NCBI GenBank assembly: GCA_019448385.1
Contig: JAGTXO010000023.1
Coordinates: forward strand, 248,001-312,000
Direction: 5' to 3'
From: Diacronema lutheri
Lineage: Eukaryota > Haptophyta > Pavlovophyceae > Pavlovales > Pavlovaceae
DNA: 64,000 nucleotides
Part shown: one piece after another, positions 41,967-50,764 of the stretch
Layout: each line of letters starts with the position of its first letter
How positions within the stretch are numbered: the stretch's first letter is position 1
Translations under genes and position numbers: made by a program
The notes under the pieces: generated by a model
Told to the model about the DNA's origin: nothing
The model's database searches: none
What the model saw: the letters and a program-made list of their open reading frames with translations, nothing else

Positions 41967-42020
<54 letters not shown>

Positions 42021-42176: not shown

Positions 42177-42641
42177 ATGTTTTGGTTCTTCCTCGGCGGC
42201 GTGGAGCCCGTCGTCACGCGCGTGCTCGAGCGCCGAGTCGGCCGCTGCCCGCTGCCGCACTGCCCGGGCGACCTCGACCGCGCCGAGCTCGCGTCGGTCC
42301 TCTCGCTCTTCGCCGTGCCAGTGTACGCGTTCAACCGGCGCGAGGCGCTGCGCTGCGCGACGTGCGGCTTTGTCGCCACCGTCGAGCAGCGCGAGCACGT
42401 CTTGGCGCGCTCGCGCGAGCGCCCGTCACGCGAGTGCGCGAGCTGCGGCGCCGAGCTGAGCAGCGACAAATGGCGCTTCTGCCCGCACTGCGGCGCGCCG
42501 CGGCAGTGGCCGCACGACACGCCCGGCGCACCCGCAGCGAGCGAGCCGCCCGCGCGCTCGCCGCGGCTGGCGGCCGGCGGCCACGGTGCGCATGGATTTG
42601 AAGGAGCCGCCCACGCGCCCGCCGACTGCCAACGCGGCTAA
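42177..42641 (+). CDS. Zinc-ribbon protein (MFFFFVGGVEQ-type family)
   Basis: Single exon of 154 residues. The opening MFWFFLGGVEPVVTRVLE, the early Cys pair region (GRCPLPHCPGDLD) and LFAVPVYAFNRREALRCATC match a small eukaryotic zinc-ribbon family whose members typically begin MFFFFVGGVEQ and contain LKLFFVPVW. The C-terminal ribbon is CASCGAELSSDKWRFCPHCG, a clean Cys4 zinc site. Function in the family is unknown to me. The tail is disordered. The family resemblance is from memory and motif-level. Confidence 0.78.
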   Translation: MFWFFLGGVEPVVTRVLERRVGRCPLPHCPGDLDRAELASVLSLFAVPVYAFNRREALRCATCGFVATVEQREHVLARSRERPSRECASCGAELSSDKWRFCPHCGAPRQWPHDTPGAPAASEPPARSPRLAAGGHGAHGFEGAAHAPADCQRG

Positions 42642-42818: not shown

Positions 42819-45800
42819 TCACAGCTCGGCCATCGCGCCACTCAAGCGCGCCGCGCCCGACATCGGAGCGGCGACGGACACGCCGCCCTCGAAGCGCTCG
42901 AGCGCGGCGAGCGGCCGACTCGCCGCGCGCGCGCCGCCGCGCTCAAACGCACCCGCGAGCAGCGCGCTCGGCGCGCGCGCTGCGCGCTGCGCGAGCTGTG
43001 CGGCCGACGGCGAGAGCGACGCGCCGTTCAGCTGCGCGACGGCCGCACCGACGGGCGAAGGCGTGCCGCCGCATCTTGCCGCGTCGCGCCGCGCGGCCGC
43101 ACCGCCATGCGTGCCCATGGCGCCACCGTTGGCGCCGCCGCCGCCGCCGCCGCCGTCGTCGCCGCCGCCGCCGCCCGTCTCGCTCTGGAGATGATGGTCG
43201 CGCCTGAGGAGGGCAAGCTCGGTAAGCATGGCGCCCATCGCACCCACCAGCTCGTGCTGCGCGCGCGCGAGCGCCTCGAGCGCGTGCGCCGAGTTCGACG
43301 CGGCGTCGCGCAGCGCGTCCTCCGCGCGCGACGCGCCCAACTCCTCGAGCGGCGTGCGCGCGCACTCGGCCGCCTGCGCGGCGCGGACATGCGCGGGCGC
43401 GCGCAGCGGCGCGCCGCCGCCGTTGAGGCTTTCGATCGCGTCGGCGACGCGCGCCGCGGGCGCGCGCAGCGGGTCGAGCTCGACAAACTCAACAGCGCCA
43501 CCTGTGCCGCCATAGCCGACGCCGCCGCCGCCTCCGACGCCGCCGGGCGCGTGGCCTGCGCCCGTCCGGTCGAGAAGACCGCTCGCGTACCCACCGTGCG
43601 CGTCTGCGCCGTCGCCAACCGGCCCCGCGTCGCCGTGCGCCACATTCTCGTATCCGCCGCTCGCGCTGCGTTTCGTCACGGCGCGCACGGCGCCGGCGCC
43701 GCCGCGCCACGACGCCGCCCAGCGCGGCCAGCCCGCGGCGCGCAGGCCTCGGCGCTCGTGGCAGAGGGAGATCGCGTGCCACGCGATGTGCGCTCCGCCG
43801 AGCGCAAAGCAGAGCGCGGCCCCTGCGCGCGTGAGCGCAAGCCACTGCGGCAGCTGCAGGTCGGACGAGCCGAGCACGAGCAGGGACGCGCCGGGGCCGA
43901 CGGGCCGCAGCAGCAGGTACGCGGCGGCGGCGGTCTTGGTCCGCTTGGCAAAGTAGAGCGAGAGCAGCAGCGTCGAGACGGCGAAGGAGCCGAAGATGAC
44001 GAGGTAGCTGTGGGGGGCGGGGAGGGGGGTGAGGGACGAGTGGGCAAGTATCCGCGGGGCGGGCGGGGAGGAGCGCAAGGTGGTCGAGTAGCGCGAGCGC
44101 AGGCGATGGCACACGGCGCGCGCGCCCATGCGCCGTACACGTTGAAGAGCACACGGTCTGCGAGTGTGAGGACACTCGCCTGCGGTGTCTGCTGCTTGAG
44201 TGAGACGTGGAACATTACCGCAGCGATCAAAGTGGAGCCGCACAGGTTGAAGCGCGTCTCGATGGCGGAGGGCGGAATCAGGTAGCTGCAATCACGGCAG
44301 CAGGTGGGAAAGTGCGGGAAAGCGCGGGAAAGCGCGGGAAAGCGCGGGAAAGCACGGGAAAGAGCGGGGCGGAGCGACAGAGGTGCCGCGCGGTGAAGGG
44401 GCGGCGGCGGTTTGAGCGGGCACGCGCCGGTCCCGCGTGAGCGCAACGGCGGGCGCGCGTGGCTGCGCGCGCGCAAGGGTGCGTACGTGGCGAGGTTGAC
44501 GAGGGAGATGACCATCGGCGCGAGAAAGGCGGTGAGCACGGCCGCGAGCTCTGGGAAGCGGAAATGCACCGCAAAGTAGAAGCGAGCCGTCGGCCTCCGC
44601 CCGCCCTTGCAGCCGCACGACTCCCTGTCAAAGCCAGTCACGTTCTCGTCGTAATCATCCACAGTCAGACAGAAGCACATTTGTTCAAAAAGGGTGGGCT
44701 GCTCGTTGGAACATTGACGAACCGGCTGCAGGTACGGAGGGCCGCACCTGCGCCGCGCAGCGCGCGCGCGGCGGACGTGTCGGCCGCGCCGCGCGCACGC
44801 GCGCGTCGCGCGCGTGCCGCACGCGGGCGGCGCGGCGCGCAGGGCGGGGCGCGCACGTCTCAACGACACGCCACGAGTAGGTGAGAAGGCGGTTGTCAAT
44901 TGTGCCAGGTAACCTTATAGACGGCGAGAGGCCTGAGTACTCGGGCATGTGACAGAAGAGCGCGGACGGCGTGGTCGAGACCGCGTCGCGCGCCTCTTCG
45001 AGAAGAATCTGGAGCGCGGTGTAACGGTCGTCGCGGTGTAACGGTCGCGTCCATCGCGCAGCGCACGCGGCGCGTCTTGAGAGGGAGGCGCGGCACGAGA
45101 TTGCGCAAACGAGGCCGCATGGCGAGAGGTTTTGGCGGGCTTTGCGCGGCGAATGCGATCGCGCCCTCAAATCTCGGTGCCCCCGCCCCCTCCCTCCCCC
45201 CCCCCCCCCCCTCTCCTTGCCCTTTGCTGCGCACCTCAAGGGCCTCTGTGTTCAGTGGCCAGAAGGTCACGTTCGTCCTGAAGAAGAAGTAGGACTGCAC
45301 GCGCACGTGGTCGATGCCAAGGGAGCTGTTGCTGTCAGGCACGGCCGTCACCTGCGGCCCACGCGCCGGCGCAGGGGCGGGGGCGGCATCGTGCAGTCGT
45401 CTCAGCGTGTCGGGCGGGGATGGGGGATGGGCGGGGGGGCGGGGGGGGGGGGGGGGGGGGGGGGGGGGCGAAGGGGGCGCACAGCCGCCATCGTTGCGAG
45501 AAGGAGCGGCGGACTCACCTGCCGCAGCCGGTCGACATTGACGAGTCCGAGTCCGGCGTCGATCAGTCCGGCCGTGTCCTCGGGCAGGTAGGGCCGCCAT
45601 CGCAGCAGCGAGCCGCATTCGTTCAACAGCGGGTCGGAGAGCGCATCGACGCCGTACAGCCGGTCATGGCCGTGCTCGTCGACCTCGACGTGCATGAACA
45701 CCTGCGCGGTGCGGAGGGCAGCATGGCGGCGTGGGCAAGCTGTGGACGAGGGGCCAACAAGGCGCGAGTGGGAGGGAGGGAGGGGGGGGGGGGTGCGGAG

Positions 45801-47362
45801 GGGGAAGGGGGGGGGGGGGGGGGCGGTTGGTTGGAGCGGCGTGGCAGCGGCGGTCACTTCAAAATCGGCGTAGAAGCGCCCATTCTGCAGATCGATGTCA
45901 GCCAGATTGAGCACGTGGATACCTACCCCAATGCGCCGGAGCATGGGCTTGACGAAACCGCCGCCACCACCGTCGTCACGCGCGTCGCCACCCGCGGGCG
46001 ACGTTCCGCCGCCGGCGGACCCGCCGCCGCCGCCGCCGCTGCCGCCGCCGCTGCCACCGCCGCCGCCACCGCCCGCTGGGTCGTCGCCCGCCGGTCCGCC
46101 GCACTGGTCGACGGTGAGGCCCGAGCACTGCGCGGAGGTGACGCCCAGGTCCGTCTTGGGCAGGCACCTGGTGAGAGTGCCGACAAGGCGGGTTGGAACG
46201 ACCCACACAGGGCACAAAAGGCCACAAGCGGTTGCCACACGAGCGCAGGGTGAGAGTGCGCGCGGGCGGGCGCCAAAGCGCGTGGGTGGGGCGCGCGCGC
46301 GGCTGCTCGCGCAGACCGCACAACGCGCGGGGGCGGAGCGGGTGCGCGACGCGCGAGCAGCCGCGAACCGCGCAGCCGTGGACCGCGCGCGGCGCGCCGT
46401 TGCGCCGCTGCACTCGCCTCCGATCCGATGCGCACCACGCGCACGCGTGCGAGTGATTGAGGCCCACCGCGTTGTACGCGACGCAGCCGGCGCACAGCGC
46501 GTCCGAAGCGTCGGCGCACGGGTAGCTGCGTCCCGTACCGGGGCGTCCCGTACCGGGGCGGGCGGGCAGAGTGGGGCGGTATACGTGTATACGTGCTGAG
46601 CGCAGCACCACCGCCGCGCGCCAGTGTGGTCGCGTGCCGCGGCACTGGGCGATCTCCTGCCCCAACGCGCCCGACGCGCCTGAGGCCGACACACCGGTGG
46701 CACGGCGCGCGCGGCGCGGCGCAGCGCGGCGCAAGCGCGGCGCGGCGCCCGTACCTCGCCTTGATCGTGAGGTACGGAAGGGCCTCGAGCGGCGGCTCGT
46801 TGCCGAGCTCGACGCTGCTCGCGCCCGTCTGGCTCGCTGCGGCGCGTTGGATCGCCGCGCGCGCGCGCCGCCGCGCGCCGTCGGCGCCGGAGGCCGCGAG
46901 GATCGCGCGCGGCGCGCTCGATGCGAGCAGGCCGGGCGGGAGCGCAACGCGGACGGTGAGGTCGTGGGAGACGTGGAAAGCGCGCAGCTGTGGCACCGTG
47001 ACCCGCAGCGTTCGGTTGTCCGCGCGCTCCCACCGCACCTCGGCGGCCGCGACCGCCGCGTCCCAGCCGGCGTCGTCGTCGCCGTCGCCCGCGCGCGCGA
47101 GCGCCGCGACCACGTCGGCGGCGGCAAGCGAGGTGGCAAACTCCTCGTTCTCGAGGGTGATCGTCAGGTGGTGCGCGACCGACGCGACCGCCTCGGCCAC
47201 CACCGCACGCTCAGACACCAGATTGCCGCTCAGCCGAGCAGTGCGCTGCGGCGGCGGCGCGGGCGGCTCCGGCGGCGGCGAACTGATGCGTCCCACGCAC
47301 GCTCGTGGTGCAGCGGCCAAGGCGAGGAGCTGGATGAGCTCAAGTGCGCGCGCAGAGCGCAT
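42819..47362 (-). CDS. Pentameric ligand-gated ion channel homologue, nine exons
   Basis: Exons (minus strand) 47362-46755, 46525-46436, 46167-45858, 45701-45519, 45351-45235, 45008-44857, 44747-44487, 44285-44139 and 44007-42819. All junctions are in phase, giving 1,018 residues. A signal peptide is followed by a region of about 200 residues, a small Cys-rich insert (ALCAGCVAYN, HACAWCLP), a Gly-rich linker, then the beta-sandwich (IGVGIHVLNLADIDLQNGRF, YADFEVFMHVEV, FWPLNTEALEIL). M1 to M4 follow: LTAFLAPMVISLVNLATYL, IPPSAIETRFNLCGSTLIAA, the M3 block starting LTLADRVLFNVYLVIFGSF, and LTRAGAALCFALGGAHIAW. The order, spacing and M2-M3 loop fit the Cys-loop/GLIC superfamily. The C-terminal tail of 320 residues is cytosolic or disordered. 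Ligand and ion are unknown. Confidence 0.72.
44305..44366. repeat. 10-bp tandem repeat in channel-gene intron
   Basis: About six copies of a GGGAAAGCGC-type unit with a period of exactly 10 bp lie just inside the acceptor end of the intron at 44286-44486. On the sense strand it reads as a pyrimidine-rich TTTCCCGC array upstream of the 3' splice site. Confidence 0.85.
45441..45468. repeat. Poly-G run (sense poly-C) in channel-gene intron
   Basis: A 28-base G run on the plus strand, C on the gene's sense strand, inside the intron at 45352-45518, about 87 bases upstream of its acceptor. A second run of 17 G at 45807-45823 lies in the next upstream intron (45702-45857). Confidence 0.9.
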
Positions 47363-47691: not shown

Positions 47692-48554
47692 TCAGAGGCT
47701 CGCCGCCGCCGCCTCGCCGCCCAGCTCGGGCGAGCGCGTGAGCTCGGCCTCGAGCTCAGCCATCGAGAGCACGTACCACGGCGTCAGCTTCTTGATCGCC
47801 TCGCGCTCGACCACACCGCCGTACCCGATGAATGCGTCCGCCGGTGGGCACGCCTCCGCGTCCGTCGCGCCGTCGCCGACCATCACGACGGACGAGAGGC
47901 CGTGCGCGGCCTTAAGCCGGCCGATCGCGACGGCCTTGCCGCCCGATCGAGACGTCGGCTCGTCGCGGTCGAAGCCGGCAAACGAGCCGTCTGCGCCGCG
48001 CGCGGCACGCAGCACGCGCCAGGCGAGGGTGATCGGCAACGGCGAGGCTCGCTATACGCGCGGCGCGGCGCGGGGCGGCAGAGCGGCTGGGCGCGTGCGG
48101 CGCGGTGGCTCGTGCCTTCGTTGAAGAAGAGTCGGTTCGCCACCACATCCTCGCGCGCGATGCCGAGCCCGTCCGCCACGGGCTCGATCATCTGCCGAAA
48201 GCCGCCGGACACGAGGAAGACGCGCTTGCCGTCGCGTTTGAGCGCGGCGACAAGGGACTGGACGCCGGGTGAGTACGTGAGCGGGTGCGACGCAATCACA
48301 TCCGCCAGCGCGGCGGCGCTCGGCTGAATCAGCTTGAGCCGCTCCTGCAGCGCGACGTCGAATGGGACGCTGCCGCCCATCGCTTTGGCGGTCCACGCGG
48401 CGACCACCTCGCCCGCGCCGCAGTGGGCAGCGAGGACGTCGATGCCCTCCTCGACGACTGCGGTCGAGTCCACATCGAAGCACACGGCCGCGCACGTGCG
48501 AAAGATATGCTGCACCGCCGCTTTGGTCGTCGGCCGCTCGACGCCGGTCCCCAT
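47692..48554 (-). CDS. SERB: Phosphoserine phosphatase (HAD family)
   Basis: Exons (minus strand) 48554-48116 and 47990-47692 give 245 residues. HAD motif I is CFDVDSTAVVEEG, with Asp27 the phosphorylated residue and Asp29 the acid/base. Motif II is VFLVSGGF, the motif III Lys is in SGGKAVAIG, and motif IV is VGDGATDAEA. The order and spacing, and FFNEDGSFAGFDRDEP rebuilt across the intron, match phosphoserine phosphatases. These release serine in the last step of the phosphorylated pathway. The intron has a GC donor (GAAG|GCACGAG). No targeting peptide is obvious. The next gene diverges with 98 bp between starts. Confidence 0.92.
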
Positions 48555-48652
48555 TGCCCGACCGACACGACGGTGCCGACCCTCGGAACGCCACGCCAAG
48601 AGCCACACGCGCCGTTTGAAAAATCTCCGCGGGGATTTCTGACGACGGTGCG

Positions 48653-50764
48653 ATGGTGTCGAGGCGAGTGCTTAGCCTCGTCGCCTTCGTGGCGTCAGCG
48701 CGCGCGCACGCGGTGCTGGGCGGCGCGGTGCGCGCGTCGGCGTTCGCTCGCACGCCGCGCGCCGCGCCGCGCCTCGCCGCCGGCGCTGCGCCGCCGCAGG
48801 CCGCGTCGAGCGACGTTGCGACGCTCGCGACGTCGCTCGCCGCACGCGTGCCCGAGCTGCTCGCGTTCGCGGGGCAGACACTCGTCGTCAAATACGGGGG
48901 GCACGCGATGACGGACGACGCGCTCGCCGAGTCCTTCTACGCCGACGTTGTCCTGCTCCGCCGCCTCGGCGTCAACGTCGTGATCGTGCACGGCGGCGGC
49001 CCGCAAATCTCAGGCGCGCGCGCCGCGCCCCCGGTCGCGCGGCCGCCCCTCTCGCCCCTCTCTTCCGCCACATCGCCTTTGCCCGGCGGAGTGCATTGAC
49101 GCGTGTCGCAAGCTGAGCCCCTCCGTGTCTGTCGCGCCGAGCTTGCTCGCCCGACGTCGCCCAACCCCTGCGCGCGCGCGCGCGCGCGCGCGCCACTCGC
49201 GCCCACCCAGGGATGCTGAAGGATTTGGGCGTGCAGTCGAGCTTTGTGGACGGGCGGCGCGTCACGGACGAGCGCACGATGGAGGTAGTCGAGATGGTGC
49301 TCGGCGGGCTGGTGAACAACAAGCTGGTCAACGCGCTCTCGCGCGCGGGCGGCAAGGCCGTCGGGTGCGCGCGGCGCGCGGCATGCGATGGCGCCCCTGT
49401 CGCGCAGCTGTGCAGCGGGCACAGCGGGCGCGGTTTGGTCCAGCACGGGAGGACCGGAGTAGGGGAGCGAGGGCAGGGCGGGCAGGGCGGGGCAGGGGGA
49501 GCGTCGGCGAGCGCTCTGGCTGTCGCTCGCCCTCCGCCTGTGCCGCACCATTCGGCCCCCTCCCCCCCCCCACTCAGCGGCTCAACCCTCCCGCCATCCT
49601 GCCCCCCCCACCCCCCACCCCCTTCCTCCCCCCCGGTCTCAGTCTGACAGGCCACGCAGCAGGCGTGATCGGCGCGACCCGCCTCGAGCACTGGACCACC
49701 GACGCCTCCGGCGGCAAGGTGCGCGCAGACCTCGGGCTCGTTGGTGAGCCGACGCATGTCCGTCCCGCGCTGCTGCTCGACCTGGTTGCGTGTGGCGCCA
49801 TTCCTGTCATCGCACCAATTGGTGCGCGCGCCGCGCGCCACGCGCCACGCGCGGCTTTGCCTTGTGCGCGAAGAGCGTCGGCGCAGCGGCGCAGCGGCGC
49901 GGCGCGCGCCACGCCACGCCGCGCCGCGCCACGCCGCCGGCCAGCGACGGCGCACGCCCGCATTGCGCCCCGCAGCGCCCCCGCCCACACCGCCGCGCCC
50001 TTCGCTCAAACGGTGTGCGTGCGCCCGTGCGCCAGGCGTGGGCGTCACCGACGGCCAGTCGTACAACATCAACGCGGACACGGCGGCGGGCGCTGTCGCG
50101 GCGGCGCTCGGCGCGGCCCGGTTGCTGCTGCTCACCGACGTGGTGGGCGTTCTTGACCGTAGCGGCGAGCTGATGCGGGTGGGGCGCACGCGCTGCCTCG
50201 CCGCCTCGCGCGCGAGCCGCTCGCCCGTCATCTGCCGCGATCTGCGCGCCCGCCCGCTCTCCCCGCTCAGCGCCCCCCCCCCCCTTTTTTTCTCTTGCGT
50301 TCTGGTCGTGCAGTCGTTATGCACGGACGATGTGTCCCGCCTCGTCGCAGACGGCACTATTAGCGGCGGGATGATCCCAAAGGCAAGCCAAGCGCAGCCG
50401 CGCAGCGCAGCGGCCGCGCGTCGCAACCGAAGGAGGGGGGCTGCTGCCCGCGGGCCCTCTCGCGCGTGGCGTGCGCACGCCTTTTCACGCCGCGGTGCGC
50501 GCATCCGCTGGCCGTCCCATTGACCTGCTGCCATTCTCACCCACCCCCCCCCCCCTCCCCCCCCCCCCCCCCACCCCCCCCCCCCCCCACCCCCGCCGCC
50601 TTCCGCCCCGCGCACAGCTCGAGACGGCGTGCGATGCGGTCACCGCGGGTGTCGGCGCATCCGTCATCCTTGATGGCCGCGTCGACCATGCGCTGCTCCT
50701 CTCGCTGCTGCCCGGCGTCGGCGTTGGCACGACCGTGGGCGACACAGCCGCTGGGCGGCGCTGA
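48653..50764 (+). CDS. ARGB: Acetylglutamate kinase, probably plastid-targeted
   Basis: Exons 48653-49013, 49211-49364, 49643-49821, 50036-50178, 50314-50382 and 50618-50764 give 350 residues. The enzyme phosphorylates N-acetylglutamate in arginine synthesis. Motifs are [84 protein letters not shown] and GTTV. Residues 1-20 form a signal peptide, followed by [13 protein letters not shown]. That is the bipartite pattern used for plastids of secondary red origin. Introns 1 and 5 have GC donors (CAG|GCGCGC and AAG|GCAAGC). Intron 5 has very long C runs at 50544-50588. Confidence 0.93.
50544..50588 (+). repeat. Near-continuous poly-C tract before NAGK last exon
   Basis: C runs of 12, 16 and 15 bases broken by single T and A. 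They end 29 bases before the acceptor of exon 6 at 50617, where a polypyrimidine tract is expected. Confidence 0.9.

Follow-up and report, generated by a model that had tools for sequence, protein, structure and literature searches.

The window analysed here is a stretch of 64,000 nucleotides from the haptophyte Diacronema lutheri (contig JAGTXO010000023.1, positions 248,001 to 312,000), whose minus strand carries a gene of nine exons that extends from an ATG at position 47362 to the end of the stop codon at position 42819 and specifies a protein of 1024 amino acids. By profile comparison and predicted fold, this target protein is a strongly divergent homologue of the Pro-loop ("Cys-less") pentameric ligand-gated ion channels (pLGICs). 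The gene contains eight introns of 109-250 bases each that preserve the phase throughout; seven have GT-AG splice sites, and intron 2 has a GC donor (GC-AG), a choice supported by the alignment with the relative P0001, which runs gapless there ('RCLP' continuous). P0001, a protein of 856 amino acids encoded on a 10,546-base contig from a different source, shares 56% identity with the target over 94% of residues 190-740 (E 2.3e-188). The two proteins have an N-terminal domain, a cysteine module, a Gly-rich linker and the channel core in the same order, and their alignment is free of gaps at all eight exon junctions, the closest gap lying three residues past junction 1. Since the GC content of the window (67-77% per 2 kb) is high enough to yield long chance frames and the gene model was read from genomic DNA alone, an artefact made of unrelated exons joined by eye has to be considered. 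However, a chance joining of frames is implausible because P0001 keeps the domain order and every junction, and we regard such an artefact as hardly credible. Judged from this sequence comparison, the gene is real and its predicted coordinates and reading are exact. The joining of nine exons in phase that the sequence-only reading had put forward was thus borne out, and the motifs IPPSAIETRF, LTLADRVLFNVY, CFCLTVDD and SCGCKGG were all found as it had claimed.

The exons divide the protein as follows. Exon 1 (46755..47362) specifies a signal-peptide-like start (residues 1-24, with a hydrophobic stretch at 6-24) and the N-terminal domain (residues 39-203, approximately), exon 2 (46418..46525), which has the GC donor, most of a PSI-like cysteine module (residues 203-239), and exon 3 (45858..46167) the end of this module, the Gly-rich linker and the first strands of the ligand-binding domain (RIGVGIHVLN..., to residue 342). 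The ligand-binding domain continues through exon 4 (45519..45701, residues 343-403), exon 5 (45235..45351, residues 404-442), which includes the Pro-loop (NVTFWPLNTEALE), and exon 6 (44857..45008, residues 443-493). The Cys-rich loop C region, the last strand, the pre-M1 Arg and M1 (44489..44560, residues 556-579) are encoded by exon 7 (44487..44747), the M1-M2 linker, M2, the M2-M3 loop and the start of M3 by exon 8 (44139..44285), and the remainder of M3, M4, M5, the tail and the stop codon by exon 9 (42819..44007).

A profile of two sequences led to the relatives P0002-P0005, and a profile of six sequences to P0006-P0015. The counts of conserved cysteines, M2 residues and membrane segments given below refer to six of the 16 known sequences (the target and P0001-P0005), as each of the ten remaining sequences is incomplete in the ectodomain or in the membrane region. 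Comparison of the six-member family profile with a profile of 12 bacterial pLGICs by hhalign yielded a score of 89.5 over 292 columns, a span that begins at the first strand of the ectodomain and ends with M4, as compared with a top score of 25.6 in 60 local shuffles. The bacterial set was obtained from 292 genomes of one phylum with pLGIC matches in 13 of them, 12 above the cut-off; 12 of the 13 loci were used, L028 being dropped by a filter on frame length and the P-x-D motif. A GLIC stretch as query for bacterial relatives detected one pLGIC locus among 212 matches, and none of the 46 matches obtained with the canonical channels of D. lutheri itself was a relative. An untemplated AlphaFold model of P0002, based on an alignment of ten of the 15 homologues (P0009, P0011 and P0013-P0015 being excluded as apparent intron read-through or fragments), retrieved GLIC, GABA-A receptors and glycine receptors in a fold search, and the search with the full-length P0001 model, which is too poor for detail, agreed with this result. 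Profile and predicted fold together thus reveal a beta-sandwich ectodomain followed by M1-M4.

Several results weigh against this assignment. The Neur_chan profile search that the sequence-only reading had suggested as a check, run with Pfam, detected no such domain in the target with the E limit relaxed to 10, and Neur_chan_memb was found in one of ten relatives, with a best E of 0.016; Pfam and NCBIfam matches, being weak or lacking, were consequently dropped as proof of membership. One of the 12 sequences in the bacterial profile, L030, itself falls under the Pfam cut-off. In the PDB, pLGICs appeared at E 0.084 or worse in the single-sequence search and at E 0.52 and 0.3 in the profile searches. 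The model confidence is modest (predicted local distance difference test, pLDDT, 42.6 for full-length P0001 and 58.4 for P0002), and among the 50 Foldseek matches listed the query TM-scores are 0.32-0.38 with root-mean-square deviations of 7.0-14.8 Å. The proposed pLGIC homology accordingly stands on profile-profile comparison and predicted fold and fails by Pfam. The sole PDB hit at E < 0.001, Tic35 with profile A1, was rejected as a chance similarity due to the glycines of the linker.

The Pro-loop of the target reads NVTFWPLN. Its proline is kept in all six members, with the family pattern WPxN, and matches in the alignment the proline of YPFD in locus L019, which is GLIC-like. In the target and P0001-P0005 there is no cysteine near this proline, the next one following about 25 residues on, and the 13-residue disulfide loop that defines Cys-loop receptors is missing; the label of Cys-loop receptor is therefore wrong for this protein, and that of a Pro-loop channel fits. 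Eight other ectodomain cysteines (371, 461, 494, 505, 517, 519, 537 and 539 in target numbering) are conserved in 6/6. Six of them (494 to 539) lie at and near the segment that joins the final two strands predicted for the ectodomain (44597..44746, residues 494-543), the position at which loop C forms the cap over the ligand site in known pLGICs. N-glycosylation sequons at residues 411 and 430, read off the alignment, are likewise present in every member.

Outside the channel core, the N-terminal region, the CxxC-type insert and the Cys-rich segment before M1 were confirmed as real and common to the relatives. P0001 also possesses the N-terminal domain, which was further detected, weakly, in P0008 (E 3.3e-5) and P0012 (E 0.0026) within the set of 15 proteins; in the rest of the genome, the best match outside its own gene had an E of 0.54. 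Its pLDDT in the P0001 model is 21-41 (ten-residue blocks 71-210). The module at residues 206-261 has, by eye, the cysteine spacing of PSI domains. The Pfam PSI model (PF01437) scored 8.9 bits in the target (E 2.5), far under the gathering cut-off of 23.1, and matched five of ten relatives at E <= 10, with a best E of 0.0019.

From M1 onward, hydropathy analysis detected five membrane segments in all six members, where four helices had been counted before; at the cut-off used, 1.0, a few weaker stretches in other parts were picked up as well, among them the signal-peptide-like start. Segment 4 (43863..43937, residues 653-677) contains an R-x3-P motif (RPVGP) and is followed by the extra segment M5 (43761..43841, residues 685-711). 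The protein thus departs, by prediction, from the pLGIC scheme of exactly four membrane helices with the C-terminus outside. As an alternative, four helices might be real, with segment 4 as an in-plane helix like MX, which lies before M4 in pLGICs, segment 5 as M4 and an extracellular tail. Such an arrangement would suit the Arg and prolines of segment 4 and the higher hydropathy of segment 5, which is clear in five of the six members; in the target the two segments are about equal (Kyte-Doolittle values of 1.49 for segment 5 and 1.46 for segment 4), and this moderate hydrophobicity of M5 counts against a fifth helix. However, it is segment 4 and not segment 5 that carries R-x3-P, found in all six family cores and in five of 12 bacterial M4 segments, and that raises the profile score from 49.3 for M1-M3 to 58.3, as compared with 48.6 for segment 5 instead and 53.8 for both, the windows being chosen by eye. 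Taken alone, segments 4 and 5 gave probabilities of 1.7 and 0.15 and are too short and weak to judge. Moreover, in the 50 VIA-align matches listed the aligned range stops at model residues 475-479, ahead of helix 481-503, and the 25 residues after segment 5 include 4-8 basic and 0-2 acidic ones in 6/6. We therefore consider the four-helix arrangement unlikely; segment 4 is probably the canonical M4, a genuine M5 is probable, and the tail probably lies in the cytosol, a location that requires a fifth membrane segment. The cytosolic tail anticipated by the sequence-only reading is hence retained, by way of M5 and with 313 residues (42822..43760) in place of 320. The tail of P0001 comprises 153 residues; a helical stretch of the target tail (43203..43301, residues 865-897), coiled-coil-like by eye, aligns with the predicted helix 779-828 of P0001.

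The pore helix M2 (44183..44257, residues 590-614, with E -2' at residue 589) is described here in prime numbering. E -2', S 6', K 19' and P 23' are conserved in all members, position 2' is N or S, 9' is I, L or V, and 13' is M or L; the length from -2' to 23' equals that of GLIC in the alignment with L019. A cation channel that is gated from outside is the likely reading. The same channel could instead be selective for anions: K at 19' is more usual in anion receptors, which speaks against cation selectivity, and R at 0' adds to this resemblance. Against this, E -2' is present in 6/6 and the PAR-type signature of anionic channels is missing, and anion selectivity appears rather unlikely. It was further considered that the protein may keep the pLGIC fold but no longer conduct, and act at the cell surface as a receptor or as a scaffold for adhesion, with its tail as the signalling part, a role that the big outer modules, the PSI-like domain and the long tail with its helical stretch would suit. 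Since M2 retains the polar residues at 2' and 6' as well as E -2' in 6/6, the conserved residues suggest that the pore is maintained in the family, and a non-conducting protein seems quite unlikely.

We consider it quite probable that the target protein belongs, as a channel subunit, to a haptophyte branch within the Pro-loop pentameric ligand-gated channels. From the computed homology, fold, helix order, pore residues, cysteines, outer modules and fifth hydrophobic segment, we infer that in a ring of five subunits the M2 helices (N/S 2', S 6', hydrophobic 9' and 13') would line a central pore, with the N-terminal domain, the PSI-like module and a ligand-binding domain with disulfide-stapled loop C facing outside. 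An extracellular ligand, which might be a small molecule, a metal ion or a peptide, would bind beneath the remodelled loop C and open the pore; because the E -2' ring would confer cation selectivity, opening would depolarise the cell or admit calcium. With M5, the C-terminus would come to lie inside the cell, and the tail helix may serve there to anchor the channel or to hold a partner. Since CxC pairs are conserved in loop C, a metal or redox ligand is a fair first guess. The wider proposal of an ancient five-helix class in haptophytes, in which outer modules and Cys-stapled loop C sense metal, redox state or peptide and the tail couples opening to a partner, is tentative, and we hold it possible rather than probable.

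Related environmental and haptophyte sequences have the same design. P0006 is a protein of a Prymnesium sp. metagenome-assembled genome, and since Prymnesium (Prymnesiophyceae) and Diacronema (Pavlovophyceae) belong to separate haptophyte branches, an origin of the family in early haptophytes is probable, unless transfer occurred, a view based on this one named relative. None of 50 pattern matches on viral contigs was confirmed as a relative. A search of the D. lutheri genome (43,492,796 bases, 103 contigs) with the target core or P0003 as query, in which the best candidates alone were scored, detected no close paralogue. The genome contains at least six other pLGIC-like loci (L001-L006 on contigs C75, C37, C32, C71, C50 and C29), two above the Pfam cut-off for the ligand-binding domain and four with sub-threshold membrane-domain matches; all six have FPFD in frame and more ordinary cores. 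This alga thus holds a sizeable set of pLGICs. In L006, the pLGIC-like frame is extended at the N-terminus by some 90 residues, judged by eye to be SAM-like, with no Pfam SAM match at E 0.01, and the open frame of L005 extends hundreds of residues past the channel core, possibly as a second fused tail.

The channel gene is convergent with a gene on the plus strand for a zinc-ribbon protein (42177-42641, PF17032, E 3.6e-09). Upstream lies a piece of a HAD-type phosphatase gene on the minus strand (about 48108-48554, PF00702, E 2.3e-10), phosphoserine-phosphatase-like by eye, and a frame on the plus strand (48620-49099) resembles, by eye, N-acetylglutamate kinase. Long G-rich runs occur at 42000-42020 (intergenic), 45441-45468 (intron 4) and 45782-45823 (intron 3).

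The sequence-only reading had derived novelty from the rarity of such channels in algae, an argument that cannot carry it, since pLGICs of algae and protists including Emiliania, diatoms and coccolithophores are described in PMC4795631 and PMC11085791 and further loci exist in this genome. According to PMC4795631, no biological role was known for any pLGIC of a unicellular organism at the time of its writing. What is new, as far as shown by the literature searched, whose scope excluded most subscription papers, is a eukaryotic pLGIC family in which an N-terminal domain and a PSI-like module are combined with eight invariant cysteines in the ectodomain, a probable fifth helix and a long tail; no paper within that scope combined the phrases for pLGIC and fifth helix. 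A family that is invisible to Pfam and that adds modules at the N-terminus and, probably, a fifth helix broadens the range of the superfamily, and an apparently single-copy gene in a cultured alga offers a test system for receptor sensing without a nervous system.

GLIC and the cyanobacterial pLGICs share with the family the ectodomain fold, the Pro-loop, M1-M4, the length of M2, E -2' and R-x3-P in M4, whereas GLIC, whose chains among the PDB matches mostly have 311-321 residues, presumably lacks the N-terminal domain, the PSI-like module, the Cys-rich loop C, the fifth helix and the long tail. Animal Cys-loop receptors have the predicted fold in common, but the family is without their Cys pair around the Pro-loop and has a fifth segment. 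The PSI domains of plexins, semaphorins and integrins resemble the cysteine module in spacing, although the target remains far under the Pfam cut-off. The Cys-less pLGICs of protists, as reported for Emiliania and diatoms in PMC4795631 and PMC11085791 and represented here by L001-L006, belong to the same superfamily and likewise lack the Cys-loop cysteines. Five of these six loci (L002, split by introns, was left out) aligned with the family profile over 78 membrane columns only (probability 88.9), but with the bacterial profile over 257 columns (probability 99.5), and they show FPFD in place of WPxN. In Alvinella Alpo2, a five-helix prediction was read by the authors as confusion with the MX helix, with which the doubtful helix aligns according to PMC4801368, whereas in the present family the extra helix comes after M4. 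DeCLIC, also a Foldseek match, resembles the family in that a pLGIC core bears additional beta-rich modules at its N-terminus, but it comes from prokaryotes, its extra part consists of two jelly-roll lobes, and it has four helices. PMC9897478 describes N-terminal domains as known in prokaryotic pLGICs and absent from their eukaryotic relatives.
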